A stretch of 64,000 nt of DNA from Salinimonas marina (lineage in GTDB: Bacteria > Pseudomonadota > Gammaproteobacteria > Enterobacterales > Alteromonadaceae), in NCBI RefSeq assembly GCF_015644725.1, contig NZ_CP064795.1:990501-1054500 (forward strand), given 5' to 3'. Shown piece after piece: positions 15,407-42,855 of the stretch. A program made the position numbers and the translations under genes. The stretch's first letter is position 1, and each line of letters starts with the position of its first letter. The notes beneath the pieces were generated by a model. It ran no database searches and had not been told where the DNA came from. It was given only the letters and a program-made list of their open reading frames with translations.

Positions 15407-15953
15407 ACTACAATAAATTTATAGCTGATACCTACGGCTCAAAACGCGGTCTGGCGCGGTATATAAAATTCAACACCAAACGACTTTTGGGGGCTTATCG
15501 CGCGGCTGATCATAAGAAAGTAAGCCATATAAAACGGCTTATATTTATTTGCAGCGGCAACATATGCCGCAGCCCCTTTGGAGAAGCCGTAAGTATGAAA
15601 GCAGGCTTTCCCGCTATCTCATTCGGACTGCATTGTCGGGGGGGGATCCGGCATTTGCAAAAACGCTCGATTATGCCCAGCGCCATGGTTACAACCTTGA
15701 GCGCCATCGTTCAGCCCGTATGGCCGATTATCAGCCTCAGCCTGATGATTTGTTGATTGTCATGGAGCCAGCCCACTTAGATGAGTTGAACAGATTATAC
15801 CCGGCACAGGACAAGATACTGATTGGCCGGTTTGCAGACAATCCCACGGTGTATCTGCACGACCCCTTTAACACCAATCAAATATTCTTCGACAGATGCA
15901 TGCAGCAAATCGAAGAAGCAACATTGTCTTTAATAAATACAATAAAGAAGTAG
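15403..15953 (+). CDS. Low-molecular-weight protein-tyrosine phosphatase, split by a frameshift
   Basis: The P-loop FICSGNICRSPFGEA (CX5RS) and the general-acid loop HDPFNT are both present but in different frames. The switch is at a run of eight G (15638-15645): nine G would give CRGGDPAFAKTLDYAQRHGYNLERHRSARM and a continuous product of about 183 residues. Wzb-type phosphatases of this family dephosphorylate Wzc-like tyrosine kinases and control EPS chain length. About 45 extra N-terminal residues precede the phosphatase core. The TTG start overlaps the previous stop. The shift is probably a sequencing under-call; a phase-variable G run is the alternative. Confidence 0.8.
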
Positions 15954-24318: not shown

Positions 24319-26904
24319 CTACATCTTCGCTTCTATCTCTTTCTTAGTATTCAATAGCGCTTTCTGATTGGGCTTAAGCTCCAGCGCCTTCTTAATCCAG
24401 GTGTACGCATCGTCTTGCTGGCCTTGTTGATTTAATAACCAGGAGAGGTTATTCATCGCTTGCCAGTTTTTAGGGTTTGCCTCTACCACCATACGATATT
24501 GCTTGATAGATTCAGCTTGTTTATCTGCCCGAGCCAGTTCGCTTGCATACATTTCACGGGTGCTTCCGGAATCAGAGTTTTCAGCTAAATACTCTTCCAG
24601 CAGGTCAAACCCTTGCTGCTGCTGACCTTGCTTTTTAAGCCCCTGATAGAGGGCCTGTACAGTGCGACTATTGGGTGAAGCTTCATAAGCACTACGTAAA
24701 CTTGCAGTGGCATTACCGGTGTCGTTATTCGCCAGCGCGACCTTGCCTTTTATTAACTGGGCGGCGGGCGTTTGTGCCTGCTGGTCGCTTAACTTATCCA
24801 GTAGCGTTTGCGCTTGACCAGGCTGCTTTTTAGTCAGGTAAATATCGGCGGCCAGTAATATGGCACGGTCGCTTACCGGAGTGTCATTATTTAAAAGCGG
24901 CTGTAGGGTGCGAAGCGCCGTATCGTTAGCGCCTTGCATTGTCTGGGTCCGCGCCAGCATGTAATGGACTGCCGGGGTCGACATTTCACTTTCAATCAGT
25001 TTATTTAACCGATATTCCGCTTTTTCATATTGCTGGGTTTGTAAAAATGAGCGCGCCAGTAAAAACTCAGCCTTTGGCTTGGTTTGAGGCGGAAAGTTTG
25101 CATTTTTACCAATCTCAATGGCTTCTTCAAAATCCCCGGTAAGTACATATGTATACATTTTAGTGTATTGCTGGACGTCTTCAGCAGTGGTTACCTGTTG
25201 TACCAGGTCGTCGGTTTTACCTTGGGGATCTTCACTATTCTGTGCTGCCAGAAATGCGCCTTTTAATGCCTGTTCATCGTTGGGCGCCTTTTGAAGTACA
25301 TCAGCAAACAGGGTATAGGCCTGGTCAAACTGTTGCTGTTCCATGGTGCGCACTGCTTCATGGTTTAACGCAGCAATATTGTCTTTATCGAGCTGTCTGA
25401 CCTTTTGATAGATCTCGTCAAGGGCGTCATAATTGCCCTGGTATTTTTCAAACTCGGCAGCAATCAAATAATTAGCAACATTGTCAGGCTCTTCAGACTG
25501 CCATTGCTGTAATTGAGCCCTGGCCGCTTCTTCACCTTCTTCGTTGGCTTTAAGGGTCAGCAAGATCAGCTTGGCCTGTTTGGTGTTGCCTTCTGCTTCC
25601 TGGGTCAAAATGCGGTTGGAAGATTCACGAACCATCTCCAGACCCGACTGGTCACCTGAAATCAGCTTAAATAAGCCGACTTCCTGGCGCTGTTGTTCGG
25701 TTTTGATATTATTGCCATCCAACTGCGACAATATTTGGTTGGCGCCTTTGGAAAAACCGTCACGAATCAGGCTCATGCTGGTAATCACCGACAGCTCGGC
25801 ATTGTCGTTTACCATTTCAGGGCTGCGATTGAAAATTTCCAGCGCATCGCTGCTGGCACCGGTTTCCAGCTTGGCCGCTATGTACAGTTGCTTGGCCGGG
25901 TGATTGGCGGGAACCCGGGTGACAATGTGTTCCAGATTCGCAATCGCCTGCTCGTAGTTTTGTAATTTGAAGTGCGCCATGCCGGCTATATACGAGGTAA
26001 GGGGGCTTTGCATACCGGCGTTTTGCGCTTTCTCGATATGGTTTGAGGCTTTTTCAAAGTCTTCTTTAGCTAAGGCGACAATGGCGGCCAGTTGATTAGC
26101 CATGGCCTGATTCGGAAAACGCCCCAAAATCTCATTGATATACTGGGTGGCTTCATCGAAGCGTTTCAGTCGAATAAGAGATTCAGCGATATTGAAGTTC
26201 AGCCGCAAAAAAGCAGGCTTATCTTCCAGCAGCTGTTGAAAATTCGTCAGAGCAGATTCCGTTGCTCCCATACCATACTGAATTTCTGCAATTAACGTGC
26301 GGGTCACCCAGTCGGTAGACTGCTTATTTTCAACCTCAGCCAAGGCGGCTTCGTCGGCGGTATCCGGGTTTACGACAAATTGATCGACCAGGCTTAGCAA
26401 GTTTGCATCCCGCTCACTCAACTGAGACTTTTCCAGCCCATCGATAATTGTCTGAGCTTCTTGTTTGTCGGCCTGGCGACCCAATACCAATGCTTCAATA
26501 ATCTGCACAAAAGCGGAAGGCTGAAAACCTTCACGACTTTCCAGTTGCTCAATGGTTTGCAACGTGGCGTCATTATTGGCGTAGGCATAGGTGGCGCTGA
26601 TATAACTGTCAGCAAATTTTACAGGTTCCGCCCCCGCCTCCATCGCCTTATCAAAGGAGCTCACAGCATTTTCCATGCTCCCCATCTTGTAATAAGCCTG
26701 AGCTAACAACAACCGGGCTTCTGCATTGTCAGGCGACGCCTGAATGGTCTGTTTGAGCTCAATTAACGCTTGCTGATATTCATTGTTTTCAATAGAAGTG
26801 CGCGCCTGCGACAACTGTTCTTCAATAGACTGTTCGGCACAGCCTGTCATAATGGCCAGAGGCAGGGCAGCAATAAGCAATTTCTTGGTAAATATTCGTT
26901 TCAT
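24319..26904 (-). CDS. prsT: PEP-CTERM-system TPR-repeat lipoprotein PrsT
   Basis: Start at ATG 26904 (MKRIFTKKLLIAALPLAIMTGC), giving an 861-residue protein with a lipoprotein signal ending in MTGC. The rest is tetratricopeptide repeats throughout (for example ALIELKQTIQASPDNAEARLLLAQAYYKMG and YRMVVEANPKNWQAMNNLSWLLNQQGQ). Length, lipobox and location beside PEP-CTERM genes match the PrsT family, the TPR lipoprotein of exosortase loci. It is probably tethered to the outer or inner membrane and scaffolds EPS or PEP-CTERM protein export. A single-gene unit with its own terminator. Confidence 0.9.
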   Translation of the reverse strand: MKRIFTKKLLIAALPLAIMTGCAEQSIEEQLSQARTSIENNEYQQALIELKQTIQASPDNAEARLLLAQAYYKMGSMENAVSSFDKAMEAGAEPVKFADSYISATYAYANNDATLQTIEQLESREGFQPSAFVQIIEALVLGRQADKQEAQTIIDGLEKSQLSERDANLLSLVDQFVVNPDTADEAALAEVENKQSTDWVTRTLIAEIQYGMGATESALTNFQQLLEDKPAFLRLNFNIAESLIRLKRFDEATQYINEILGRFPNQAMANQLAAIVALAKEDFEKASNHIEKAQNAGMQSPLTSYIAGMAHFKLQNYEQAIANLEHIVTRVPANHPAKQLYIAAKLETGASSDALEIFNRSPEMVNDNAELSVITSMSLIRDGFSKGANQILSQLDGNNIKTEQQRQEVGLFKLISGDQSGLEMVRESSNRILTQEAEGNTKQAKLILLTLKANEEGEEAARAQLQQWQSEEPDNVANYLIAAEFEKYQGNYDALDEIYQKVRQLDKDNIAALNHEAVRTMEQQQFDQAYTLFADVLQKAPNDEQALKGAFLAAQNSEDPQGKTDDLVQQVTTAEDVQQYTKMYTYVLTGDFEEAIEIGKNANFPPQTKPKAEFLLARSFLQTQQYEKAEYRLNKLIESEMSTPAVHYMLARTQTMQGANDTALRTLQPLLNNDTPVSDRAILLAADIYLTKKQPGQAQTLLDKLSDQQAQTPAAQLIKGKVALANNDTGNATASLRSAYEASPNSRTVQALYQGLKKQGQQQQGFDLLEEYLAENSDSGSTREMYASELARADKQAESIKQYRMVVEANPKNWQAMNNLSWLLNQQGQQDDAYTWIKKALELKPNQKALLNTKKEIEAKM

Positions 26905-27166
26905 AATTTTGCAGTTCAAACTAGTTGGTATGTTCACAGTAAGCAATCTGAAGGTAAAGTCAAAGGCTATACGCTCACTTTGAAGTATTGATCAGTATAA
27001 AAGCTTCGTAGCTTACCATTAGTTGCGATGAAAACGGTATGGAAGGTATTGCCATTGAAGGTCTATGGCTTTGTCCTGCAGAGTGAAGTCGTTCAATTAG
27101 TTAATTAACGTGCTTCGTTGGGCGCACCTATTGTATATTGTCTTTTTTCATTAAGGAGCGAAGTTT

Positions 27167-29209: not shown

Positions 29210-29965
29210 TTACGACTTACGACGGCTGCTTGCGCCAAGGCCCAACAGACCCAGAGACAATACCGCAATAGTTGAAGGTTCTGGAACATCAAATACTGCG
29301 CTTACATCGCCAGTTACTTGTTGCTCACCTTCAAGAGGAATGTTATCGAAATCACCATCTACACGAACATTCATGTAGAACGGAGTAGGAGATACAAAAT
29401 AAGTATCGCCATCTTCAGTCAGTTCAAAGTCACGGAACATAAAGTCAAACACACCGCCGAAGCCGTATAGCAGACCAACATTCTGTGCAATAGTTTCGCT
29501 AGCACCTAACAGCATATCATCTGAAGTGTTTGCCAAATCTAACGTACCCACATCATTCGCGATGGTGTCTTGATTTTTGTCAAGATACAGCATGAATGAA
29601 CCTGTTTCGGCAGACAAAGAAGCCTGTGCACCACCTGGTCCTGGGATAGTTACATCGCCGGCAGCAGTGAAAGTTGCATACAAGTTGTAGTTAGAGCCGA
29701 TTACCGAACCGATTTGAGAGCTGTTCGCAGTACCGTCGCTACCGAATAACTGATTCATAGAAGCAAACGCTGAAACTGTGAAGCCATCGTTATCATCAAA
29801 GTTGATGATTTCAGTGTAACCGCCATTCAGTTTGTCTGCCTGAACGATTTCACCGCCATATGGAGTTTCATCGATCTCGAAGTCAAGGAAGTCAGCGTGG
29901 CTGGCAAAAGAAGCCGAAAGGCCAACCGTTAGCGCGATAGATTTTACCAATGTTTTAATTTTCAT
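29210..29965 (-). CDS. PEP-CTERM sorting-domain protein, array copy 1
   Basis: 251 residues from ATG 29965 (ribosome site GGAGA just upstream). Signal peptide MKIKTLVKSIALTVGLSASF...SHA, then ADFLDFEIDETPYGGE, the shared core (VQADKLNGGYTEI, SQIGSVIGSNYNLYATF, GFGGVFDFMFRDFEL, SPTPFYMNVRVDGDFD) and the C-terminal sorting signal VPEPSTIAVLSLGLLGLGAS followed by SRRKS: Pro-Glu-Pro box, membrane helix, basic tail. An exosortase would cleave this at the membrane. The mature part has no cysteine. The core recalls, from memory, the flocculation-associated PepA family. It is the most distal gene of nine and has its own promoter and terminator. Confidence 0.92.
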   Translation of the reverse strand: MKIKTLVKSIALTVGLSASFASHADFLDFEIDETPYGGEIVQADKLNGGYTEIINFDDNDGFTVSAFASMNQLFGSDGTANSSQIGSVIGSNYNLYATFTAAGDVTIPGPGGAQASLSAETGSFMLYLDKNQDTIANDVGTLDLANTSDDMLLGASETIAQNVGLLYGFGGVFDFMFRDFELTEDGDTYFVSPTPFYMNVRVDGDFDNIPLEGEQQVTGDVSAVFDVPEPSTIAVLSLGLLGLGASSRRKS

Positions 29966-30018
29966 ACTTTCTCCATATTCCAATTGGAAGAGTTTGACGT
30001 AAACTCTGCTCGTCACTA

Positions 30019-30114
30019 TGCACTTGCAATACCAACTTTATAGGTGGTTGAATCATTCCGATTTTCACGAAACTCAAAAAAAACTGTCCCCGAATGTGTA
30101 AATTACTCTGACAC
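30019..30114 (-). promoter_or_regulatory. Sigma-54 promoter and upstream palindrome of array copy 1
   Basis: Minus strand TGGTATTGCAAGTGCA (30034-30019) fits the -24/-12 pattern TGGYAY-N5-NTGCA with exact spacing. The shared palindrome GTGTAAATTACTCTGACAC is at 30096-30114 on the plus strand, its centre 73 bp upstream of the -24 GG. An activator bound there would contact sigma-54 polymerase. Confidence 0.8.
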
Positions 30115-30401
30115 TAATTTGTTTAATAAATGACCTAAAAGGTGTATCTGGCCGCTTTTTGTCCCCGCCGGCATTTGCTGGTTTTAGTTTGCTTCTGACT
30201 AAATGGGCTGAGTGGCGGATGTTGTGGCACTTTTTTCTGAGCAATTCGTACTGTTTGGTATGCAGAATCATAAAAGGTATTGTAAAAAATACCATTTGAG
30301 TCGGCTTTAACCGAGCTTGAAGCTGCCAGAGGAAAGAATTTTCCTGAGTTAGAATGGGTAGAATGTCGGGAGGGTACCTGATTGTCAGGCACTTAGAATA
30401 G
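30115..30401. other. Spacer between array copies 1 and 2
   Basis: Apart from the promoter and palindrome of copy 1 at its left end and the terminator of copy 2 at its right end, no gene or structured element was seen. It contains one plus-strand and one minus-strand chance frame without family resemblance. Confidence 0.5.
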
Positions 30402-30428
30402 AAAAGCGACCCAGAGGGCCGCTTTTAA
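30402..30428 (-). terminator. Terminator of PEP-CTERM gene 2
   Basis: AAAAGCG-ACCCAGAGGGC-CGCTTTT: a less perfect version of the array terminator, followed by a T-rich stretch on the minus strand. Confidence 0.7.
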
Positions 30429-30450
30429 AATTGCTGATTCTAACTGATCT

Positions 30451-31203
30451 TTATGATTTACGACGACTGGTGGCACCGAGCCCTAACAAACCCAAAGACA
30501 AAATTGCAATGGTAGAAGGCTCAGGAATGAATACCGCACTCACATCACCGGTGATAGTTTGCTCACCTTCCAGTGGGATAGTATCAAAGTCTCCATCAAC
30601 ATTTACGTACATGTAAAATGGGGTGGGCGAAACAAAATAGGTATCGCCATCGCCGGTTAATTCAAAGTCTTTGAAAATAAAGTCAAATACCCCACCAAAG
30701 CCAAACAGTAGGCCTACATTGGAACCGATAGAAGTGCTTGAGCCTAGTTCCAGGTCATCCCCGGTATTGGCTAGATCCAGCGTGGCCACATCATTTGGGG
30801 TGGTATCCTGATTCGCATCGAGCCATAGGGTGAAAGAACCAGAGTTTGCCGATAGCGAAGAGTCGGAACCCTGCTCTCCAGGAGTCATTACGGTACCTGC
30901 AGCGGTAAAGGTCGCGTATAGGTTATAATTGGCCCCGATGACGGAACCAATCTGGGAGCTATTGGCCGAACCGTCATTGCCAAATAGTTGATTCATAGAA
31001 GCAAATGCGGAAACAGTGAAGCCACCTTCGCCATCAAAGTTGATGATTTCAGTATAACCGCCGTTCAGTTTATCAGCGGTGATAACTTCACCACCGTAAG
31101 GGGTTTCATCGACCTGGAAATCCAGGAAATCAGCATGGCTGGCAAAAGAAGCAGCAAGACCCGCCGTTAAAGCTAGAGTTTTTACTATAGAAGTGATTTT
31201 CAT
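30451..31203 (-). CDS. PEP-CTERM sorting-domain protein, array copy 2
   Basis: 250 residues from ATG 31203, chosen because GGAGA lies five bases upstream, whereas the ATG at 31209 would overlap that site. Signal peptide ends ASFASHA-DFLDFQVDETPYGGE. The core matches its neighbours with ENQ-to-SLWLDANQDTTPND changes and FGFGGVFDFIFKDFELTGDG. Sorting signal IPEPSTIAILSLGLLGLGAT plus SRRKS. Predicted to be secreted and anchored, then processed by an exosortase. Monocistronic: own sigma-54 promoter and terminator. Confidence 0.92.
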   Translation of the reverse strand: MKITSIVKTLALTAGLAASFASHADFLDFQVDETPYGGEVITADKLNGGYTEIINFDGEGGFTVSAFASMNQLFGNDGSANSSQIGSVIGANYNLYATFTAAGTVMTPGEQGSDSSLSANSGSFTLWLDANQDTTPNDVATLDLANTGDDLELGSSTSIGSNVGLLFGFGGVFDFIFKDFELTGDGDTYFVSPTPFYMYVNVDGDFDTIPLEGEQTITGDVSAVFIPEPSTIAILSLGLLGLGATSRRKS

Positions 31204-31258
31204 CGCCATCTCCATATATCTATTTAAGTCGACTTCCAAGAAGCCGTATTAAAGATGT

Positions 31259-31342
31259 TGCATTAGCGGTGCCATTATTTAAGTGGTTAAATTTTAACCG
31301 CTTTATTTTTGAGAAATTCACGAGTGTAAAGAAATTTGACAC
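31259..31342 (-). promoter_or_regulatory. Sigma-54 promoter and upstream palindrome of array copy 2
   Basis: TGGCACCGCTAATGCA on the minus strand (31274-31259) is a near-consensus -24/-12 element. GTGTAAAGAAATTTGACAC at 31324-31342 is the shared palindrome, centred 61 bp upstream of the -24 GG. Confidence 0.88.
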
Positions 31343-31530
31343 TTTGAGAGGAAGGAGCCCATTGGCAAGCTCTGTAACACAGCGTCAGTACGGCGTTATC
31401 AAGCGTCTGAGGAGTAGGTAAGAAAAGTTTCAGGCTATATTTTTATCTCGTGTTATAGATTGGATGGCCTGGATAAATGCTGTATGGATGTATCTTCTTA
31501 GTTTTGTCTGTTTTGTTTATGACAAAAGCA
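31343..31530. other. Spacer between array copies 2 and 3
   Basis: No gene seen between the palindrome of copy 2 and the terminator hairpin of copy 3. Confidence 0.5.
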
Positions 31531-31550
31531 AGGTGACTTCCCTGTCACCT
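31531..31550 (-). terminator. Terminator of PEP-CTERM gene 3
   Basis: AGGTGAC-TTCCCT-GTCACCT, followed by TGCTTTTGTC on the minus strand. This stem differs from the CGACC stem of most other copies, and its T run is weaker. Confidence 0.6.
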
Positions 31551-31582
31551 ATGTTGCTATAGTTTACCAAAAGCAGAGCCGA

Positions 31583-32335
31583 TTAAGATTTACGGCGTTT
31601 GGTAGCGCCTAACCCTAGTAAGCCGAGCGAAAGTACTGCTAATGTGGCTGGCTCTGGAACAAATACTGCACTTACATCACCGGTCAATATCTGATTGCCT
31701 TCTAAATCAAGCTCATCAAAATCACCATCTACGGTTACCATCATATAAAATGGAGTAGGTGACACAAAGTACTCTTCGCCATCCTCGGTTAATTCGAATT
31801 CATTGAACATAAAGTCGAACACCCCGCCAAATGGATACAGCAGACCAATATTCTGAGCAATTGAGCTACTGCCGCCCAGTTCTATATCATCACCTGTACC
31901 ACTTAAGGTCAAAGAAGCCAGGTCTGTGTAGGTCGTATCCTGGTCATCATCAAGATAAAGGGTAAAAGAGCCTGAGTCGGCTGACAGTGAAGCAATTGAT
32001 CCCATTACACCCGGACTCGTTACGGTACCGCTAGCGGTGAAGGTTGCATAAAGATTATAGTTAGCACCAATAACCGAACCAATTTGAGAGCTGTTGGCGG
32101 TACCATCATTACCAAATAGCTGGTTCATTGAGGCAAATGCAGCAACGGTAAAGTTGCCTTCATCATCAAATTCGATATATTCAACGTAGCCACCGTTCAA
32201 TTTATCGGCGGTAACAACATCACCATCATAAGGCGTTTCATCAACCTCAAAGTCCATAAAACTGGCGTGACTGGCAAATGCAGCTGCAATGCCTGCGGAT
32301 AGAGCTAAAGATTTTATAAGCGTATTAAATTTCAT
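31583..32335 (-). CDS. PEP-CTERM sorting-domain protein, array copy 3 (acidic variant)
   Basis: 250 residues from ATG 32335 with GGAGA upstream. Signal peptide MKFNTLIKSLALSAGIAAAF then SHA. The mature part starts SFMDFEVDETPYDGDV and is more acidic than other copies (YIEFDDEGNFTV, LYLDDDQDTTYTD, NEFELTEDGEEYF, VDGDFDELDLEGNQ). Sorting signal VPEPATLAVLSLGLLGLGAT plus KRRKS. The acidic shift suggests a different partner or salt-exposed role, which is inference. Own promoter and terminator. Confidence 0.92.
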   Translation of the reverse strand: MKFNTLIKSLALSAGIAAAFASHASFMDFEVDETPYDGDVVTADKLNGGYVEYIEFDDEGNFTVAAFASMNQLFGNDGTANSSQIGSVIGANYNLYATFTASGTVTSPGVMGSIASLSADSGSFTLYLDDDQDTTYTDLASLTLSGTGDDIELGGSSSIAQNIGLLYPFGGVFDFMFNEFELTEDGEEYFVSPTPFYMMVTVDGDFDELDLEGNQILTGDVSAVFVPEPATLAVLSLGLLGLGATKRRKS

Positions 32336-32390
32336 GACCATCTCCGTATTCCAGTGTGGGGAGCATTAGATATGTGCTCACTAATACTAT

Positions 32391-32474
32391 TGCATTAGAA
32401 GTGCCAACCTGTAAGTGAATGATTTATAGTCTGTTTAAAAATCAACCAGGTATTTGTGTAAAAAAAGCAGACGT
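32391..32474 (-). promoter_or_regulatory. Sigma-54 promoter and degenerate palindrome of array copy 3
   Basis: TGGCACTTCTAATGCA on the minus strand (32406-32391) is a consensus -24/-12 element. At 32456-32474 GTGTAAAAAAAGCAGACGT keeps the left half of the shared palindrome but its right half is degenerate. Centre 61 bp from the -24 GG. Confidence 0.82.
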
Positions 32475-32844
32475 CTGACCCCGTTTTTTTATTAGAAAAA
32501 TAGACTAAAGGCTAAAGTCAATTATTAGCGTCCTGGAACATCCGCAGGCTTCGACAAACCGCAAAAATTGAATTGATGCTGAATAAGAAACCGCGTTAGA
32601 TGATATTTGGCGAAAGGTTTGCTGCCCGAGGGTAATAACAACAGATACAGGAGAGTGCAACGTGAGCCTGGATTAAAAAGTGAGTCTGGTTAATAAAGAT
32701 AATGCTTGTTTATAGCGCCATGCATAACCAAGACAGGGGCAACATCACCAGCCGATGTGAATAGCTCACCCTATGGGACCTCTTGTTGTTGAGCGCTTTG
32801 ACAACAACTGCAGGTTAAAAGCTTTATTTGTAGCTTGTACAAAA
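32475..32844. other. Spacer between array copies 3 and 4
   Basis: The longest spacer of the array, about 370 bp. I see no gene, IS end or repeat in it. Confidence 0.5.
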
Positions 32845-32866
32845 AAGGCGACCCGAAGGTCGCCTT
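32845..32866 (-). terminator. Terminator of PEP-CTERM gene 4
   Basis: AAGGCGACC-CGAA-GGTCGCCTT, followed by TTTTTTG on the minus strand. Confidence 0.9.
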
Positions 32867-32889
32867 AATATTCATTTGCTGACGTAAAA

Positions 32890-33645
32890 TTATGCTTTAC
32901 GACGGCTGCTGGCACCAAGACCTAATAGGCCTAAAGCCAAAACCGCTATGGTTGAAGGCTCTGGTACCTCAAATACTGCACTTACGTCACCAGTAACCAG
33001 CTGATCACCTTGCAGTGGAATATTATCAAAATCGCCGTCTACACGAACGTTCATGTAGAAAGGCGTTGGAGAAACAAAATAAGTATCGCCGTCTGCTGTC
33101 AGTTCAAAGTCACGGAACAAAAAGTCAAACACACCACCGAAGCCATACAACAAGCCTACGTTTTGCGCCAGGTTATCACTTGAACCCAACAGTTTATCAT
33201 CTGAAGTATTGGACAAAACTGACGGCGCACCAACATCAGCAGTGGTATCCTGGTTTTCGTCCAGATACAAAGAGAATGAACCCGAGTCTGCCGACAACGA
33301 CGAATTAGCACCTTGCTCTCCAGGCGTCATCACAGATCCAGTTGCTGAGAATGTGGCATAAAGGTTGTAGTTTGCACCGATTACAGAACCAATCTGAGAG
33401 CTATTAGCAGAGCCGTCGTTACCAAAAAGCTGATTCATAGACGCGAACGCAGTGGCGGTAAAGTTACCAGCGCCATCAAAACTTAACAATTCGAAATAAC
33501 CGCCGTTTAGTTTATCAGCAGTGATCACTTCGCCACCGTATGGGGTTTCATCGATCTGGAAGTCCAGAAAGTCGGCTTGGCTAGAAAAAGATGCTGCGAT
33601 ACCAGCAGTTAATGCTAAAGATTTTACTAATGTTTTAAGTTTCAA
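32890..33645 (-). CDS. PEP-CTERM sorting-domain protein, array copy 4, TTG start
   Basis: 251 residues. By alignment with copies 5 and 7 the start is TTG at 33645: those have GGAGTACGGAATATGAAACTT where this copy has GGGGTACGGAACTTGAAACTT, so both the ribosome site and the ATG are changed. Signal peptide then SSQADFLDFQIDETPYGGE; core as in neighbours, with GGYFELLSFDGAGNF and DENQDTTADVGAPSV unique to it. Sorting signal VPEPSTIAVLALGLLGLGAS plus SRRKA. Expected to be translated more weakly than its neighbours. Confidence 0.9.
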   Translation of the reverse strand: MKLKTLVKSLALTAGIAASFSSQADFLDFQIDETPYGGEVITADKLNGGYFELLSFDGAGNFTATAFASMNQLFGNDGSANSSQIGSVIGANYNLYATFSATGSVMTPGEQGANSSLSADSGSFSLYLDENQDTTADVGAPSVLSNTSDDKLLGSSDNLAQNVGLLYGFGGVFDFLFRDFELTADGDTYFVSPTPFYMNVRVDGDFDNIPLQGDQLVTGDVSAVFEVPEPSTIAVLALGLLGLGASSRRKA

Positions 33646-33702
33646 GTTCCGTACCCCAATTTCGAATAAGTATGAAGCTTCAGTAAGCCTCTGGCATGAC
33701 AT

Positions 33703-33786
33703 TGCAATTGGCGAGCCATATTGCAACTTCTTGAATTTGTTAAAAATCAACGTAAGGTTTAGGTGGTGTGTAAATTTTGTTGACAC
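33703..33786 (-). promoter_or_regulatory. Sigma-54 promoter and upstream palindrome of array copy 4
   Basis: TGGCTCGCCAATTGCA on the minus strand (33718-33703) fits the -24/-12 consensus. GTGTAAATTTTGTTGACAC at 33768-33786 is the best palindrome of the set, centred 61 bp upstream of the -24 GG. Confidence 0.88.
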
Positions 33787-34029
33787 TTTAGTAGTGGGTG
33801 TACGCGTTGTTATAAACCACAGGAAGGTACTCTGATTGTCAGTAAACCGGCCCTGCAAATTTTTGGCTTTCCGGATATGGGGATTACTTGTAGCGAAATA
33901 GAAAGGAACATCGCTTCTTAATATTATTAAGTATTTAGCGGTCGTACGATGGTGACTTTGTTACTGCTAAGCGGAAAAGAATCGTTTTTCGCTTGCTAAT
34001 TCTGTTTAAGAAACTAATTTGTGATATAC

Positions 34030-34060
34030 AAAAAAGACGACCCGAAGGTCGCCTTTTTTA
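34030..34060 (-). terminator. Terminator of PEP-CTERM gene 5
   Basis: AAAGACGACC-CGAA-GGTCGCCTTT with flanking A and T runs, 18 bp after the stop on the minus strand; matches the terminator of copy 7 closely. Confidence 0.9.
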
Positions 34061-34078
34061 TTTATAGCGGGCGTAAAA

Positions 34079-34834
34079 TTAAGATTTACGACGGCTGGTA
34101 GCGCCAAGACCTAACAGGCCTAAAGACAGTACCGCAATAGTTGATGGCTCTGGTACATCAAATACCGCACTGACATCACCCGTTACTTGTTGCTGGCCTT
34201 CCAGAGGAATGGTGTCAAAATCACCGTCTACACGAACACTCATGTAGAAAGGCGTAGGAGATACAAAGTAGGTATCGCCCTGTGCAGTCAGTTCGAAGTC
34301 ACGGAACATGAAATCAAACACCCCACCGAAGCCATACAACAGACCGACATTTTGTGCCAGGTTGTCACTTGAACCTAACAGCATGTCATCTGAGGTGTTA
34401 GCCAAATCTAATGTGGCTACGTCGTTCGCCGTGGTGTCCTGATTGGCATCAAGGAACAAAGAGAACGAACCAGACTCTGCTGACAATGATGAGTTAGAAC
34501 CCATTGCGCCCGGAGTCATTACGGTACCGGTAGCAGAGAATGTGGCATACAGGTTGTAGTTAGCACCGATAACAGAACCAATCTGTGAGCTGTTGGCTGT
34601 GCCGTCGTTACCAAAAAGTTGGTTCATTGACGCAAATGCAGTAGCAGTGAAGTTACCGGCATCGTCAAAGTTAATGATTTCAGTGTAACCGCCATTCAGT
34701 TTATCAGCAGTGATCACTTCACCACCATAAGGAGTTTCATCAATCTGAAAATCCAGAAAATCAGCGTGGCTAGAAAAAGATGCTGCGATACCCGCGGTCA
34801 GTGCTAAAGATTTTACTAATGTTTTAAGTTTCAT
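34079..34834 (-). CDS. PEP-CTERM sorting-domain protein, array copy 5
   Basis: 251 residues from ATG 34834 with GGAG eight bases upstream. Signal peptide MKLKTLVKSLALTAGIAASF then SSHA. Core has DFQIDETPYGGEVITADKL, SQIGSVIGANYNLYATFSAT, LGSSDNLAQNVGLLYGFGG and SPTPFYMSVRVDGDFD; sorting signal VPEPSTIAVLSLGLLGLGAT plus SRRKS. It is nearly identical to copy 7, differing at only about five residues (AQGD against EDGD, EGQQQV against EGEQTV). Similarity extends into both flanks, so one is a recent copy of the other. Confidence 0.93.
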   Translation of the reverse strand: MKLKTLVKSLALTAGIAASFSSHADFLDFQIDETPYGGEVITADKLNGGYTEIINFDDAGNFTATAFASMNQLFGNDGTANSSQIGSVIGANYNLYATFSATGTVMTPGAMGSNSSLSAESGSFSLFLDANQDTTANDVATLDLANTSDDMLLGSSDNLAQNVGLLYGFGGVFDFMFRDFELTAQGDTYFVSPTPFYMSVRVDGDFDTIPLEGQQQVTGDVSAVFDVPEPSTIAVLSLGLLGLGATSRRKS

Positions 34835-34894
34835 ATTCCGTACTCCATATTCCAATTAAGAGTGAAGCTTCAGTAAGCCTCTGACCTAAGATAT

Positions 34895-34978
34895 TGCAGC
34901 AAGCGTGCCAACATATAAATCATTGATATACGGTTAAATTAAGATCTGATCTAAATGCCGTGTTAAATTTGTCGACAG
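34895..34978 (-). promoter_or_regulatory. Sigma-54 promoter and upstream palindrome of array copy 5
   Basis: TGGCACGCTTGCTGCA on the minus strand (34910-34895) is a consensus -24/-12 element. GTGTTAAATTTGTCGACAG at 34960-34978 is the palindrome with one insertion-like change; centre 61 bp upstream of the -24 GG. Confidence 0.86.
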
Positions 34979-35287
34979 ATTCAGGGTCAAAGTTATTTGG
35001 TTATGTAAAACCCTGTATTTATACACTTTAATGCGTGGAGATGAGTGGATAAGTCGTGGGGGCTGACATCTTTGGCGTGCAATAACCTTGCAAAAAGAAT
35101 TGAACAAGGATTACGTTAAAGCGTAAGAACGATGCTGGGTGATGTTGGGTAAAAGGGAGCTGCGGGGAAACAACAGTAGGCGAGTGTAAATCTGTAGCTG
35201 GCCAGGCTGGTTTAAGCACTATCTACTTAGGAAGGTTTGAACAAAAATCTATCTGGACGGTCGTATTTGCTCGTCTTTTGTCTCTGC
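34979..35287. other. Spacer between array copies 5 and 6
   Basis: About 310 bp without a recognisable gene. The first 40 bp, next to the copy 5 palindrome, are shared with the equivalent place upstream of copy 7. Confidence 0.5.
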
Positions 35288-35317
35288 AAAAAAAGGCGAC
35301 CCGATGGTCGCCTTTTT
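35288..35317 (-). terminator. Terminator of PEP-CTERM gene 6
   Basis: AAAGGCGACC-CGAT-GGTCGCCTTT with T run on the minus strand, 19 bp after the stop. Confidence 0.9.
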
Positions 35318-35336
35318 CAATTGTGCGCGTGTAAAA

Positions 35337-36098
35337 TTATGCTTTACGACGGCTGGTCGCGCCAAGGCCAAGAAGACCTAACGCCAGTACTGCGATAGTT
35401 GAGGGCTCTGGTACATCGGCAACAAATACGGCGCTAAGGTCACCGGTTACCTGTTGCTGGCCAGCCAGAGGGATGGTGTCGAAATCACCATCGATATTAA
35501 CGGTCATATAAAAAGGCGTTGGAGATACAAAATAAGTATCGCCGTCAGCGGTTAGTGTGAAGTCATTAAAAATGAAATCAAACACACCACCAAAACCGTA
35601 CAACAAGCCTACATTTTCAGCCAAAGAGGTGCTGAAACCCAGCATTCTATCATCTGCAGTATTTGCTAAGGTCAACGACGCGACATCAGTAGCCACGGTA
35701 TCGCGGTTCTGATCAAGATAGAGTGAGAAAGAACCACTATCAGCAGACAACGAAGCGTTTGAGCCCATGACACCAGGGGTCATTACCGTCCCTGTCGCCG
35801 TGAATGTTGCGTACAGATTATACTGAGCGCCAAGCAAAGAACCAATCTGAGAGCCGTTGGCGGTACCATCGTTGCCAAACAATTGGTTCATCGAGGCAAA
35901 TGCTGAAGCAGTGAAATTACCTGCATCATCAAAAGTAAGAATTTCGGTATAGCCGCCATTTAGTTTATCCGCAGTCACGACTTCACCACCGTACGGGGTT
36001 TCGTCAACTGAAAAATCTAAAAAGTCAGCGTGGCTAGCAAAAGAAGCAGCAAGACCAGCAGTAAGCGCTAAAGATTTTACTAACGATTTAATTTTCAT
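35337..36098 (-). CDS. PEP-CTERM sorting-domain protein, array copy 6
   Basis: 253 residues from ATG 36098. The ribosome site is weaker than in neighbours (GGAAAAA well upstream, no GGAG). Signal peptide MKIKSLVKSLALTAGLAASF then SHA; the mature part begins DFLDFSVDETPYGGEVVTADK. SQIGSLLGAQYNLYATFTAT and DQNRDTVATDVASLTLAN distinguish it. Sorting signal VPEPSTIAVLALGLLGLGAT plus SRRKA, preceded by an extra ADV. Own terminator and sigma-54 promoter of the long-spacing class. Confidence 0.92.
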   Translation of the reverse strand: MKIKSLVKSLALTAGLAASFASHADFLDFSVDETPYGGEVVTADKLNGGYTEILTFDDAGNFTASAFASMNQLFGNDGTANGSQIGSLLGAQYNLYATFTATGTVMTPGVMGSNASLSADSGSFSLYLDQNRDTVATDVASLTLANTADDRMLGFSTSLAENVGLLYGFGGVFDFIFNDFTLTADGDTYFVSPTPFYMTVNIDGDFDTIPLAGQQQVTGDLSAVFVADVPEPSTIAVLALGLLGLGATSRRKA

Positions 36099-36152
36099 AA
36101 AGGGTATTTTTCCAATTAAGGTAAGGGGCTTCCATAAGCCGCTCAAGTTATT

Positions 36153-36247
36153 AGCACTTTATATGCCAAAATTTAACCTGTTGAATTTTGAGCTGATATA
36201 GCTCGACGCAATATTGAGGCCATAACAAGTGTAAAGAAACATGACAG
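36153..36247 (-). promoter_or_regulatory. Sigma-54 promoter and upstream palindrome of array copy 6
   Basis: TGGCATATAAAGTGCT on the minus strand (36168-36153) matches -24/-12 with exact spacing. GTGTAAAGAAACATGACAG at 36229-36247 is the palindrome, centred 72 bp upstream of the -24 GG. Confidence 0.82.
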
Positions 36248-36422
36248 TTTCAAGGTTACTTTTGCTGAAGAAAGGCCAATACTTCAAACACACTTTGTTT
36301 TTGCGGACCAGGCTTTTAAAGCGGTTGGTATTGCATAGCAAGAAATTCAGTGCTTTCTGTTTATAAAATAGTGTTGCTGATAGCGGAGATAAAGTGGGGG
36401 GCAAGGTGATACAAAAGGTAAT

Positions 36423-36453
36423 AAAAAAAGACGACCCGAAGGTCGCCTTTTTT
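36423..36453 (-). terminator. Terminator of PEP-CTERM gene 7
   Basis: AAAGACGACC-CGAA-GGTCGCCTTT with flanking A and T runs; same stem as after copy 5. Confidence 0.9.
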
Positions 36454-36472
36454 ATTTATAGCGGGCGTAAAG

Positions 36473-37228
36473 TTAAGATTTACGACGGCTGGTAGCGCCA
36501 AGACCTAACAGGCCTAAAGACAGTACCGCAATGGTTGATGGCTCTGGTACATCAAATACCGCACTGACATCACCCGTTACTGTTTGCTCACCTTCCAGAG
36601 GAATGGTGTCAAAATCACCGTCTACACGAACACTCATGTAGAAAGGCGTAGGTGATACAAAGTAGGTATCGCCATCTTCTGTCAGTTCGAAGTCACGGAA
36701 CATGAAATCAAACACCCCACCGAAGCCATACAACAGACCGACATTTTGTGCAAGGTTGTCACTTGAACCTAACAGCATGTCGTCTGAGGTGTTAGCCAGG
36801 TCTAATGTGGCTACGTCGTTCGCCGTGGTGTCCTGATTGGCATCAAGGAACAAAGAGAACGAACCAGACTCTGCTGACAATGATGAGTTAGAACCCATTG
36901 CGCCCGGCGTCATTACGGTACCGGTAGCAGAGAATGTGGCATACAGGTTGTAGTTAGCACCGATAACAGAACCAATCTGTGAGCTGTTGGCTGTGCCGTC
37001 GTTACCAAAAAGCTGGTTCATTGACGCAAATGCAGTAGCAGTGAAGTTACCGGCATCGTCAAAGTTAATGATTTCAGTGTAACCGCCATTCAGTTTATCA
37101 GCAGTAATTACTTCACCACCATAAGGAGTTTCATCAATCTGAAAATCCAGAAAATCAGCGTGGCTAGAAAAAGAAGCTGCGATACCCGCGGTAAGTGCTA
37201 AAGATTTTACTAATGTTTTAAGTTTCAT
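36473..37228 (-). CDS. PEP-CTERM sorting-domain protein, array copy 7
   Basis: 251 residues from ATG 37228 with GGAG eight bases upstream. Almost a duplicate of copy 5: identical signal peptide and core, with EDGDTYF and PLEGEQTVTGD instead of AQGDTYF and PLEGQQQVTGD. Sorting signal VPEPSTIAVLSLGLLGLGAT plus SRRKS. The shared tract runs from the terminator through the gene, the promoter and the upstream palindrome, close to 1 kb. Selection for dosage or recent gene conversion could explain it. Confidence 0.93.
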   Translation of the reverse strand: MKLKTLVKSLALTAGIAASFSSHADFLDFQIDETPYGGEVITADKLNGGYTEIINFDDAGNFTATAFASMNQLFGNDGTANSSQIGSVIGANYNLYATFSATGTVMTPGAMGSNSSLSAESGSFSLFLDANQDTTANDVATLDLANTSDDMLLGSSDNLAQNVGLLYGFGGVFDFMFRDFELTEDGDTYFVSPTPFYMSVRVDGDFDTIPLEGEQTVTGDVSAVFDVPEPSTIAVLSLGLLGLGATSRRKS

Positions 37229-37288
37229 ATTCCGTACTCCATATTCCAATTAAGAGTGAAGCTTCAGTAAGCCTCTGACCTAAGACAT

Positions 37289-37372
37289 TGCAGCAAGCGT
37301 GCCAAAATGTAAGTCACTGATATCTGGTAAAATTGAGATGTGATCTAAATGCCGTGTAAAGTTTGTCGACAG
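37289..37372 (-). promoter_or_regulatory. Sigma-54 promoter and upstream palindrome of array copy 7
   Basis: TGGCACGCTTGCTGCA on the minus strand (37304-37289), identical to copy 5. GTGTAAAGTTTGTCGACAG at 37354-37372 is the palindrome, centred 61 bp upstream of the -24 GG. Confidence 0.88.
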
Positions 37373-37653
37373 ATTCAGGGTCAAAGTTATTTAAATAAGT
37401 AAAATCCTGTATTTAATAGCGTTAAATGATAGTGAGTACTTCCTGCCCCGTGGTATTAACAGTCTAAATGGGTCGTGAAAAGCACATAGGCCAGGTTTAA
37501 AAAAGGCAGAATGGATAGGGTCGAGAACTGACAAATACCGCCACGGGGGATTTCACAGACCTGACAACGCAGGCTATCGAAGGATAGAGTCAGCGGGCAC
37601 AAAGGTGGGTTGTATTAAATAGAATAGTCGCAGAGACTGCGTTGTATACAGAC
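37373..37653. other. Spacer between array copies 7 and 8
   Basis: About 280 bp with no recognisable gene; the first 40 bp match the equivalent place upstream of copy 5. Confidence 0.5.
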
Positions 37654-37683
37654 AAAAAAGACGACCCAAAGGTCGCCTTTTTT
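37654..37683 (-). terminator. Terminator of PEP-CTERM gene 8
   Basis: AAAGACGACC-CAAA-GGTCGCCTTT with T run on the minus strand. Confidence 0.9.
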
Positions 37684-37705
37684 CATTTATATGGCTGGCG
37701 TAAAA

Positions 37706-38464
37706 TTAAGATTTACGGCGACTGGTAGCGCCAAGCCCTAACAGGCCTAAAGAAAGTATCGCAATAGTTGAAGGCTCTGGGACCTCAAAAACTGCGCTGA
37801 CAGAGCCAGTTACCTTTACAGGACCTAGTGCAGGCTCAAACTCCCCAATTGAACCATCCACACGAATATTCATGTAAAAAGGCGTTGGTGATACAAAATA
37901 GGTATCACCATCTTCAACCAGCTCAAAGTCACGGAACATAAAATCGAACAACCCAATAAAGCCAAAATGTAGCGCAAAATTCTGAGCCAGGTTGTCGCTT
38001 GAACCTAACAATTTGTCGTCGGAGGTATTCGCCAGATCTAGTGTTGCAACATCGTTAGCGTGGGTATCCTGATTTTCATCAAGATACAAAGAAAAAGAAC
38101 CCGATTTAGCTGATAATGATAAGCCAGCATCGCTATTGCCCAGAGACCTCACGGTTCCGTTTGCACTGAATGTGGCATAAAGGCTGTAGTTTGCCCCAAG
38201 CACAGAACCAATCTGAGAACCGTTAGCCGTGCCATTGTTACCAAATAATTGGTTCATAGAAGCAAACGCTGTGGTCGTAAAATTACCTGCGCTATCAAAG
38301 TTAATGATTTCAGTGTAACCACCATTTAGCTTATCGGCAGTAATTACTTCACCACCGTAAGGGGTTTCATCAAGCTGAAAATCCAGAAAGTCGGCGTGGC
38401 TTGCCCATGACGTTGTGATTCCAGCAGCTAGCGTCAATGATTTTATTATTGTTGTTAGTTTCAT
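37706..38464 (-). CDS. PEP-CTERM sorting-domain protein, array copy 8
   Basis: 252 residues from ATG 38464 with GGAGA upstream. Signal peptide MKLTTIIKSLTLAAGITTSW then ASHA. N-terminal half is like other copies (DFLDFQLDETPYGGEVITAD, SQIGSVLGANYSLYATFSAN), but the second half is altered: NFALHFGFIGLFDFMFRDFE replaces NVGLLYGFGGVFDF and RVDGSIGEFEPALGPVKVTG replaces the DGDFD segment. Sorting signal VPEPSTIAILSLGLLGLGAT plus SRRKS is intact. It may have diverged in binding surface. Confidence 0.9.
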   Translation of the reverse strand: MKLTTIIKSLTLAAGITTSWASHADFLDFQLDETPYGGEVITADKLNGGYTEIINFDSAGNFTTTAFASMNQLFGNNGTANGSQIGSVLGANYSLYATFSANGTVRSLGNSDAGLSLSAKSGSFSLYLDENQDTHANDVATLDLANTSDDKLLGSSDNLAQNFALHFGFIGLFDFMFRDFELVEDGDTYFVSPTPFYMNIRVDGSIGEFEPALGPVKVTGSVSAVFEVPEPSTIAILSLGLLGLGATSRRKS

Positions 38465-38514
38465 AGTTATCTCCACAGTCCATTTGAAGTACTTCTAAAT
38501 TGAGTTACGTCTTA

Positions 38515-38599
38515 AGCACAAAGAGTGCCATTTTTTAAGGCTCTGTTTTATAACGAATATTTTATGAGGGGTGCACGAAGGTGTAAAGCACTCTGACAC
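38515..38599 (-). promoter_or_regulatory. Sigma-54 promoter and upstream palindrome of array copy 8
   Basis: TGGCACTCTTTGTGCT on the minus strand (38530-38515) fits -24/-12. GTGTAAAGCACTCTGACAC at 38581-38599 is the palindrome, centred 62 bp upstream of the -24 GG. Confidence 0.87.
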
Positions 38600-38685
38600 T
38601 AATTAGTTTGTTTATTGCTCTATAGCACTTTAGTGTTACTTGTTGGGCAGGATGTTGCTGACGGCAGGCGGTGTAAACTAATGCA

Positions 38686-38713
38686 AAAAAAAACGGCCCG
38701 AGGGCCGTTTTTT
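38686..38713 (-). terminator. Terminator of PEP-CTERM gene 9
   Basis: AAAACGGCCC-GA-GGGCCGTTTT with flanking A and T runs. The stem sequence differs from the CGACC type but the layout is the same. Confidence 0.9.
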
Positions 38714-38737
38714 ATAAAAGCGTATTTTTGGCTTAAA

Positions 38738-39505
38738 TCAGGATTTACGACGGCTGGTAGCGCCCAGTCCTAGTAGCCCTAAAGCCAGAACAGCCAGCGT
38801 TGACGGCTCAGGAACAAATACCGCGCTAACATCACCAGTGACACGTTGTGAACCGGTTACCGCAAACGTATCAAAATCGCCATCGGCAATAACAAAATTG
38901 TAAAAAGGATTCGGCGCAACAAAAAAGCTTTGTCCATCGGCGGTCAGAGTAAAATCACCCCAGGTGAAGTCGAAAACACCCCCCCACTCATATTGCAGAC
39001 CGTAGTTTTCCATCAGCATGTTGCTTGTTCCTAGCAAAAGATCGCCTGCGGTACCTACAGTGGTAAAGTTGATGGGATCATCATCAGCGATGTTTACGCC
39101 GAAATTGTTGTCTTGATCGAGGAATAATGAAAATGAACCCTCAGCACCGGTGAGTGAGGAGTTTGAGCCTTGTTCCCCTGGCACTGACACTGTACCTGTG
39201 GCAGAAAATAATGCATATAGCTTATACTCAGAGCCGATGACCGAGCCAATTTGTGACGAATTTTGTGTACCGTCGCTTCCAAATAGCTGCGCAAAGGTCA
39301 CCGCCGCCTGGGCCGAAAAATTACCTTCACCATCAAACATCAGAGTTTCTGTATAGCCACCATTTAACTTATCGGCAGTGACTACCTGTCCACCGTCGAA
39401 GCGTGTTTCGTCAATGTTAAAATCCATAAATCCGGCATGGCATGCAAAAGAAGCAACCAGAGCGGTGGAAAGGGCAAAAGGTTTTACCAGAGCAGTCAGT
39501 TTCAT
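38738..39505 (-). CDS. PEP-CTERM sorting-domain protein, array copy 9 (most divergent)
   Basis: 255 residues from ATG 39505 (AAGGAAA upstream). Signal peptide MKLTALVKPFALSTALVASF then ACHA, and the mature part GFMDFNIDETRFDGGQVVTA. It replaces the FASMNQLFG motif by VTFAQLFG, has LDQDNNFGVNIADDDPIN in the calcium-like acidic loop and LQYEWGGVFDFTWGDFTLTA and FVAPNPFYNFV later. Sorting signal VPEPSTLAVLALGLLGLGAT plus SRRKS. Being first on the transcribed side and most different, it may be the oldest copy or an outgroup member. Confidence 0.9.
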   Translation of the reverse strand: MKLTALVKPFALSTALVASFACHAGFMDFNIDETRFDGGQVVTADKLNGGYTETLMFDGEGNFSAQAAVTFAQLFGSDGTQNSSQIGSVIGSEYKLYALFSATGTVSVPGEQGSNSSLTGAEGSFSLFLDQDNNFGVNIADDDPINFTTVGTAGDLLLGTSNMLMENYGLQYEWGGVFDFTWGDFTLTADGQSFFVAPNPFYNFVIADGDFDTFAVTGSQRVTGDVSAVFVPEPSTLAVLALGLLGLGATSRRKS

Positions 39506-39565
39506 CGTGCTGTTTCCTTGTTCAAAGAACTTGAAGAAAGTGTGCATAATTGCGGACAAAAGCTC

Positions 39566-39661
39566 AGCATAAATCGCGCCACCTTTACAAGTGGTTGTTT
39601 TTCGCTCTTTTTGTTGTTTCCTTGTGCAAAATAAGAATTAGTTTGTAAATTAACCTGACAC
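39566..39661 (-). promoter_or_regulatory. Sigma-54 promoter and upstream palindrome of array copy 9
   Basis: TGGCGCGATTTATGCT on the minus strand (39581-39566) keeps the invariant GG and GC at the right spacing. TTGTAAATTAACCTGACAC at 39643-39661 is the palindrome with one altered base pair, centred 73 bp upstream of the -24 GG and 7 bp from the stop of the ThiF-like gene. Confidence 0.75.
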
Positions 39662-41485: not shown

Positions 41486-41569
41486 ATCCTATACTCTTTA
41501 GCTTGATAATATCGTTTCCTTGCATAATAAAGTATGCAAACATCATTAAAAAATGAGCGTAGTATTTGT

Positions 41570-42843
41570 ATGTCAGTAGAATTTAAAAAGATTGGAGTCA
41601 TAGGCTTAGGCTATGTGGGCTTACCCCTTGCTGTGGCTTTTGGAAAATACCGACCCACGGTGGGTTTTGATATTAACACCCGCCGGGTAGAAGAGCTTCA
41701 AAATGGCTCTGATCACACCCTGGAAGTTTCCTCGCAGGAATTGCAGCTGGCCAGCCAACTGTCTTTCACTGCCGACAAACATGCATTGTCCGACTGTGAC
41801 GTTATTATTGTAACCGTGCCCACCCCATTGATCGCAATAAACAGCCGGATATGACGCCGCTGCATAAAGCCAGCGAGATGATTGGCGAGGTCATAAGCGC
41901 TAACAGTGTGGTGATATATGAGTCTACGGTATACCCAGGCGCTACTGAAGAATATTGTATTCCGCTTATCGAGAAGATGTCAGGCCTGACCTACAACCAG
42001 GATTTTTATGCCGGCTATAGCCCTGAGCGCATTAACCCCGGGGACAAAACCCACCGGTTGGAGTCGATTGTTAAAGTAACCTCAGGCAGCACCCCTGAGA
42101 TTGCCGATAAAGTGGACGCGCTGTATCAGGAAATTATCAAGGCGGGTACACATAAAGCCTCGTCCATCAAAGTGGCCGAAGCGGCCAAGGTTATTGAAAA
42201 TACCCAACGGGATTTGAACATTGCACTGATCAATGAATTAGCCATGATTTTTGAAAAAGCCGGCATTGATACTGAAGAAGTATTAGAAGCGGCGGGCAGC
42301 AAGTGGAACTTCCTGCCATTTCGACCCGGGCTGGTGGGCGGACACTGTATTGGTGTCGACCCGTATTATCTTACCCATAAAGCCGAAGAGTTAGGCCACC
42401 ACCCAGACGTTATTCTGGCTGGGCGCCGCATCAACGATAAAATGGGTGAGTATGTGGTCTCCCGCTTAGTAAAAACCATGCTTAAAAAGCAAATTATGGT
42501 GAATGGTGGCAATATTTTGCTGTTAGGGATCACATTTAAGGAAAATTGTCCGGACATACGCAATACTAAAGTGGTGGATATTGCCTCGGAGCTTAATGAG
42601 TACAATGTGAATCTGGACATTTACGACCCATGGGCAAGCCCAGAGGAAGTACGCAGCGAGTATGGTCTGGAACTGGTTGATGCTCCTGTTCAAGGTAAAT
42701 ACGATGCGGTGATCGCCGCCGTGGGTCACCAGCAGTTCAAATCGCTGTCGAAAGAAGATTTACGCGCCCTGTGCAAAGACAACAGCGTGATCTTCGATCT
42801 GAAATACATGTTTGATAAATCAAGCGTAGATATACGCTTATAA
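41570..42843 (+). CDS. UDP-sugar 6-dehydrogenase (TviB/VipA-type), split by a frameshift
   Basis: Oxidises a UDP-hexosamine or UDP-hexose to the uronic acid for EPS synthesis. N-terminal Rossmann motif [20 protein letters not shown], then [16 protein letters not shown], the central [20 protein letters not shown] and [20 protein letters not shown] with the catalytic Cys, and the C-terminal [19 protein letters not shown]. The frame breaks at a CCCC run (41823-41826): a fifth C gives [20 protein letters not shown] and a 424-residue product, the normal length. Probably a sequencing artefact. ATG 41570 is chosen over 41534 because MSVEFKKIG is the family start. Confidence 0.85.
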
Positions 42844-42855
42844 GGAATTTGTAAA

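Follow-up and report, generated by a model that had tools for sequence, protein, structure and literature searches.

Nine tandem pepA genes of Salinimonas marina are preceded by sigma-54 promoters with a helically phased upstream palindrome and an IHF-like site

The window analysed here is a 64,000-nucleotide stretch (G000:C1:990501-1054500) of the 3.77 Mb single-contig genome of Salinimonas marina. It carries an array of nine minus-strand pepA genes (29210-39505), all assigned to floc_PepA by the NF033554 profile (160.9-186.4 bits; cut-off 80). Each gene is preceded by a sigma-54 -24/-12 element and, further upstream, by an imperfect palindrome. Very probably, the nine promoters belong to a PrsR/sigma-54 regulon of PEP-CTERM surface proteins, in which PrsR, with the help of IHF-like bending, would act through a phased loop on the sigma-54 polymerase. 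The box layout is not new: it is the one described by Haft et al. in 2006, here found nine in a row. Two features are additions to the known PEP-CTERM box, namely the helical phase of the gap between palindrome and promoter and a putative IHF-like site at a fixed place within that gap.

An earlier note, made from the sequence of this window, had proposed -24/-12 elements for all nine promoters, and TGG-N10-GC is exact in 9/9, always with T at position 13. The 19-bp element that it placed upstream of every promoter was likewise present at all nine places (Table 1). The consensus GTGTAAA-N5-TTGACAC is its plus-strand reading, the gene-strand form being GTGTCA-N7-TTTACAC; the pattern used in this analysis was TGTCA-N6-TTTACA in gene orientation. 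Over the 14 fixed positions of the palindrome, the copies at 31324 and 33768 lose none, those at 30096 and 38581 lose one, those at 36229, 37354 and 39643 lose two and that at 34960 loses three. The copy at 32456, described as a half element, has more than three mismatches overall and is good only in its TTTACAC half. Scored on TGTCA-N6-TTTACA, the palindromes at 34960 and 32456 have two mismatches each. The looser TGTC-N7-TTNACA is matched by eight of the nine copies, while 32456 has CGTC and fits in the TTTACA half only.

The palindrome by itself is not rare, as 17 matches with up to three mismatches over the 14 positions were found in the window vs 6.5 expected. Genome-wide, with up to two mismatches, there were 1260 matches vs 995 for the reversed control, and the palindrome alone was rejected as a marker. 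The genome was also searched for the pair of palindrome and promoter without mismatch (TGTC-N7-TTNACA, a gap of 42-72 and TGG-N9-TGC), using the reversed pattern as control; this yielded 12 matches and none, respectively. The note had raised the case of a palindrome that is common and unlinked to -24/-12 sites: this holds by half, the palindrome alone being common but the pair rare. The 12 pairs are those of eight of the nine array promoters, of a tenth pepA and of three more genes. All precede PEP-CTERM genes. Of the three further ones, 3048063 exceeds the Pfam cut-off, and 3046122 (E-value 0.037) and 2545526 (E-value 0.10) are sub-threshold matches. With the gap widened to 66-96, two extra pairs appeared, at 3170462 (gap 73, before the PEP-CTERM gene 3171222) and at 3633289 (gap 81). 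Within the window, TGTCA-N6-TTTACA with at most one mismatch and a gap of 45-89 occurred at seven places, all in the array, which bears out the claim that no such pair lies elsewhere in it. Overall, 14 of the 20 PEP-CTERM matches in the genome have the pair (32456 counted), as do 12 of the 15 over the cut-off.

Two loci with such pairs are recorded here for their own sake. The pair at 3045912 (L064:5913-5993) stands before a frame of 73 aa that matches PEP-CTERM weakly; a gene for a fatty-acid hydroxylase comes next. At L066:5494-6342, a good promoter pair (gap 63) accompanies a 282-aa protein with a weak PEP-CTERM-like tail and no Pfam or NCBIfam match at an E-value of 0.001, which is a candidate for an unnamed family.

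Haft et al. reported their box before 99 of 167 proteobacterial PEP-CTERM genes: a 17-nt motif ending in TTTACA and, after a gap of 62.8 +/- 10.6 nt (32-92), a -24/-12 motif. PrsR, PrsK and PrsT were named from the phylogenetic profile of this box, with PrsR as the activator (PMC1569441). The array agrees in that its motif ends in TTTACA (8/9 in full, 32456 by half), its gaps of 50-62 lie within 32-92 and 9/9 units stand before PEP-CTERM genes. PrsR, PrsK and PrsT are also encoded, with the prsR and prsK frames broken in the genome record. Unlike the 2006 account, the nine-copy array with one box per gene belongs to the S. marina genome. For the gap, the text of that account reports mean, standard deviation and range; IHF did not turn up when it was searched by word, and 'helical' stood in a reference title only.

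The note had placed the set under a single enhancer-binding protein, probably PrsR-like, and had suggested a search for prsK and prsR. Both are found in the genome and prsT in the window. In profile searches, rpoN scored 519.7 bits (cut-off 277) and one PrsR-type gene exceeded the family cut-off (675.3 vs 502.6 bits), with the next activator at 389.6 bits. PrsK is encoded directly upstream of PrsR, its larger piece scoring 475.5 bits (cut-off 300). The family sample comprised 295 genomes, 213 with PrsR and 82 without. Genomes with PrsR had on average 5.88 pairs (control 0.17), and 198/213 had at least two; PrsR-less genomes had on average 0.38 (control 0.21), and at least two occurred in 5/82, among them a genome that is 59% complete. 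The Fisher value of 7e-49 for pair vs PrsR is descriptive only, the genomes being related, and p-values of genomes or sites here do not come from independent events. With PrsR, PrsK, PrsT and RpoN all encoded and the pair tracking PrsR, the proposal is supported, and a PrsR-type enhancer-binding protein is the best-supported candidate activator of the nine promoters.

In array order, the gaps between palindrome and -24 are 62, 50, 50, 50, 50, 61, 50, 51 and 62; at the other five sites of the genome they are 63, 49, 60, 50 and 73. Across the family genomes, gaps peak at 51, 62, 73 and 84 bp among the matches listed (150 + 150 places, those listed first among the matches, with the first 150 from a few genera). 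For the first 150 the best period was 11.5, with a mean vector length of 0.75 (at most 0.39 among 1000 uniform sets); for the second 150 it was 11.0, with a length of 0.55 (at most 0.34 among uniform sets). Of 96 different sites outside 250-codon frames, 94 fall within 2 bp of 51 + 11n, where about 44 are expected, the phase reference (51, period 11) being derived from the same data. Of 58 single sites, 11 fall within frames of 300 codons or more (nine of the 11 off phase), whereas 45 of the other 47 are in phase; off-phase pairs thus look like background. Forty of the 47 stand before a gene that carries a PEP-CTERM tail (33 recognised by the tail pattern and seven by eye, as the pattern misses variants). 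Two precede an open-ended frame and five have no tail, and all seven stayed in the counts; the match at L192, which lay in a spurious frame within coding sequence, was overridden, and L129 and L134 were counted once each. The gap is therefore phased, with peaks one helical turn apart. A limited literature search found no helical phasing of the PrsR regulon gap in the texts available.

Phased gaps could also have been inherited from a few ancestral promoters rather than selected. The copies in the array are paralogous, and on the PepA tree the gap classes are clustered (five changes vs 17.4 in shuffles); of the 40 inner forks of this 44-row tree, 15 are open, and its bootstrap did not reach stability. 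Gaps of 50-51 are seen in 14/44 rows, all from the window genome or Alteromonas lipotrueiana, and require at least two changes; the gap of the copy at 36098 was set by hand to 61 for this tree, the pattern having given 50 from a chance AGG. Inheritance is nevertheless a highly unlikely explanation, considering that the peaks recur in several genera before different PEP-CTERM genes, with same-length spacers less than 75% identical, and that off-phase pairs are rare outside coding sequence (2/47).

The gap also contains a second element. In the short-gap class, a block 19 to 6 bp upstream of -24 is conserved, with C in 20/24 and an adjacent A in 22/24 (columns aligned on -24). It fits the IHF consensus WATCAR-N4-TTR (PMC3897727, PMC7962754). 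All nine array promoters have the forward IHF-like form, with 0, 0, 1, 1, 1, 1, 1, 2 and 2 mismatches. The genes ihfA and ihfB are expected in this class of bacteria. For a wider count, same-length spacers at least 75% identical were removed from the 96 sites, leaving 88 non-redundant ones; up to one mismatch was allowed and 200 dinucleotide shuffles served as the null. A forward match at -18/-19 was found at 30/88 sites (shuffles: mean 0.48, largest 4), a reverse match at -30 to -33 at 23/88 (mean 0.98, largest 5) and a match at any position at 64/88 (19.7 in shuffles, largest 31). With the offsets fixed, 36 of 60 further sites had an IHF-like element, 29 reverse and seven forward (shuffles: mean 1.24, largest 6 of 200). 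These 60 were hand-chosen, 40 from the first 150 places listed and 20 from the second; the latter all have gaps of 72-74 and are thus uninformative on phase. They form a partial hold-out only, since the IHF idea arose from a listing that included some of them, although the offsets were fixed on other sites before scoring. As the palindrome shifts by turns but the block stays at a constant distance from -24, the additional turn falls between the palindrome and the block. In a limited literature search, which included Alteromonas PepA, no report of an IHF site at PEP-CTERM promoters was found in the texts available.

The block might instead be an A+T-rich upstream element for polymerase, or a site for another bending protein such as HU or Fis. 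It is A-rich, and its position is fixed relative to -24 and not to the palindrome. We regard this as rather unlikely: the block follows WATCAR-N4-TTR with a strong C, and its occurrence in both orientations at different offsets suits a bending site over a polymerase contact.

From these elements we infer the following course of activation. PrsR would bind the imperfect palindrome, and IHF or a similar DNA-bending protein would occupy the fixed site between palindrome and promoter. The bent DNA would bring PrsR onto the sigma-54 polymerase, where it would open the closed complex with ATP. Looping would confine the palindrome to one face of the helix as seen from the -24 box, and evolution would then tolerate only whole-turn shifts (~11 bp). 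A single phosphorylation signal passing through PrsK could thus switch on nine pepA and five more PEP-CTERM genes together, each as its own unit. For the PrsR regulon as a whole, we think it probable that a three-part enhancer applies: the palindrome, which moves only by whole turns (51, 62, 73, 84 bp), an IHF site fixed near the promoter in one of two forms that differ in orientation and offset, and the -24/-12 element.

Parts of this scheme have counterparts elsewhere. The pepA of Aquincola tertiaricarbonis RN12 is RpoN1-dependent and has a mapped start, a putative -24 TGGCAC and an upstream enhancer sequence; unlike the array, RN12 is described with one pepA, with prsT downstream, and the available text does not mention IHF or helical phase (PMC9850573). 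The note had stated that PepA needs RpoN and PrsK/PrsR. RpoN1-dependence in Aquincola agrees with the first part, while the second is weaker than stated, as the floc-deficient prsK insertion mutant was not restored by plasmid prsK or prsK-prsR (PMC9850573). At the Vibrio qrr/LuxO sigma-54 enhancers, the loop lengths of 61 putative natural enhancers also cluster ~11 bp apart (PMC4740811). Activator and targets differ there; in the PrsR regulon, four turns are seen across several genera, together with an IHF-like site at a fixed place. Desulfovibrio orp2, with an IHF site at -43 and an activator site at -88, has nearly the short-gap geometry; its IHF site is functional, having been tested by mutation, unlike the array sites, which are known from sequence (PMC3897727).

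Several observations weigh against the PrsR scheme. No convincing site was found at 6/20 PEP-CTERM matches of the genome, including 1228717, 524825 and 1356384 over the cut-off and three weak ones. Fewer than two pairs occur in 15/213 PrsR genomes, and none in three (G035, G076, G105) under the pattern used. Of the 60 further sites, 24 have no IHF-like element at either of the fixed offsets. DVUA0057 of Desulfovibrio and a second activator, DVU0110, were predicted to share one motif (PMC4641369), so that the box is not necessarily exclusive to PrsR. Finally, both prsR and prsK are broken in the genome record (prsK-prsR at G000:C1:805634-809056, L063:9635-13057): a frameshift interrupts prsR inside the C-terminal, DNA-binding helix-turn-helix, and two frameshifts divide prsK into three frames.

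The last two points bear on whether another enhancer-binding protein drives the set, with PrsR as a phylogenetic companion only. Seven more matches to the PrsR model in this genome are strong (256-390 bits), but all are below the cut-off, pairs track PrsR across the 295 genomes and DVUA0057 enriched predicted PEP-CTERM targets in DAP-chip (DNA-affinity-purified-chip) experiments (PMC3333781); another activator is very improbable indeed. If the prsR frameshift is real, PrsR could not bind and the array has just lost its activator, being silent or on another one. Three frame breaks within ~3.4 kb could be taken in this sense, both frames being open in every one of the seven same-genus relatives compared. 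However, 3/13 other window genes compared with same-genus proteins are likewise split (15391-15950, 41549-42840, 42850-43868), so that the record looks indel-prone. Past each break, the sequence read in another frame retains 47-100% identity to relatives, and the pepA promoters retain their elements. A recent loss is quite unlikely, and the breaks are likely to stem from sequence error. We retain the PrsR/sigma-54 scheme as the highly probable one for the array, whose features are collected in Table 1.

Table 1. Features of the pepA array (window coordinates; gap, palindrome to -24; offset, from T of -24)
Feature	Position	Strand	Details
prsT, tetratricopeptide repeat (TPR) protein of PrsR/PrsK system	24319..26946	(-)	TIGR02917 328.2 bits, cut-off 312.2
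pepA copy 1	29210..29965	(-)	NF033554 168.6 bits, cut-off 80
pepA copy 2	30451..31203	(-)	NF033554 174.7 bits
pepA copy 3	31583..32335	(-)	NF033554 184 bits
pepA copy 4, TTG start	32890..33645	(-)	NF033554 186.4 bits
pepA copy 5	34079..34834	(-)	NF033554 177.1 bits
pepA copy 6	35337..36098	(-)	NF033554 183.3 bits
pepA copy 7, 98% identical to copy 5	36473..37228	(-)	NF033554 178.1 bits
pepA copy 8	37706..38464	(-)	NF033554 165.8 bits
pepA copy 9, most divergent (63% to copy 5)	38738..39505	(-)	NF033554 160.9 bits
sigma-54 -24/-12 element 1	30019..30034	(-)	TGG-N10-GC
sigma-54 element 2	31259..31274	(-)	TGG-N10-GC
sigma-54 element 3	32391..32406	(-)	TGG-N10-GC
sigma-54 element 4	33703..33718	(-)	TGG-N10-GC
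sigma-54 element 5	34895..34910	(-)	TGG-N10-GC
sigma-54 element 6	36153..36168	(-)	TGG-N10-GC
sigma-54 element 7	37289..37304	(-)	TGG-N10-GC
sigma-54 element 8	38515..38530	(-)	TGG-N10-GC
sigma-54 element 9	39566..39581	(-)	TGG-N10-GC
IHF-like site 1, 2 mismatches	30041..30053	(-)	offset -19
IHF-like site 2, 2 mismatches	31280..31292	(-)	offset -18
IHF-like site 3, 1 mismatch	32412..32424	(-)	offset -18
IHF-like site 4, 1 mismatch	33724..33736	(-)	offset -18
IHF-like site 5, exact	34916..34928	(-)	offset -18
IHF-like site 6, 1 mismatch	36174..36186	(-)	offset -18
IHF-like site 7, exact	37310..37322	(-)	offset -18
IHF-like site 8, 1 mismatch	38536..38548	(-)	offset -18
IHF-like site 9, 1 mismatch	39588..39600	(-)	offset -19
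palindrome 1, PrsR-box-like, imperfect	30096..30114	(-)	gap 62
palindrome 2	31324..31342	(-)	gap 50
palindrome 3, one half degenerate	32456..32474	(-)	gap 50
palindrome 4	33768..33786	(-)	gap 50
palindrome 5	34960..34978	(-)	gap 50
palindrome 6	36229..36247	(-)	gap 61
palindrome 7	37354..37372	(-)	gap 50
palindrome 8	38581..38599	(-)	gap 51
palindrome 9	39643..39661	(-)	gap 62

GC-rich hairpins with T runs lie 3' of several pepA copies (e.g. minus-strand 32866-32845, 36453-36424 and 38713-38688), which fits single-gene units; on both strands of the array region, 27 terminator-like sites were counted vs 9.6 in shuffles. The tenth pepA (3444172-3444915; L065:6170-6946) lies far away, shares 99% identity with copies of the array and retains a gap-50 promoter; it is a recent dispersal.

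In PepA similarity, the window genome is close to A. lipotrueiana (93%, best segment) and Salinimonas profundi (79%). Clustered pepA copies were also found in A. lipotrueiana (six in L220, two in L219) and in three genomes of the same genus as S. marina (G068, G278 and G168). The copies of these three form their own group on the tree (100/100), apart from the window and A. lipotrueiana copies, which indicates that arrays expanded at least twice. In G068, nine PepA-like copies (L186, G068:C1:1312000-1331500) have a prsT-like TPR gene among them. Five G068 copies had no pattern match; by eye, four have the motif with GT instead of GC at -12, and in the fifth the palindrome is present in reverse orientation.

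In S. marina, nine tandem surface-protein genes are thus placed under one predicted signal. For the family, the two-part consensus of 2006 would become a stricter rule, in which phase and an IHF-like site predict members of the PEP-CTERM regulon. If the three-part enhancer holds, hundreds of natural promoters would read the in vivo helical repeat (~11 bp), and PEP-CTERM target genes could be called from sequence by this rule. The stimulus of PrsK was termed obscure in 2006 (PMC1569441), and an array this large would be a strong reporter for finding it.

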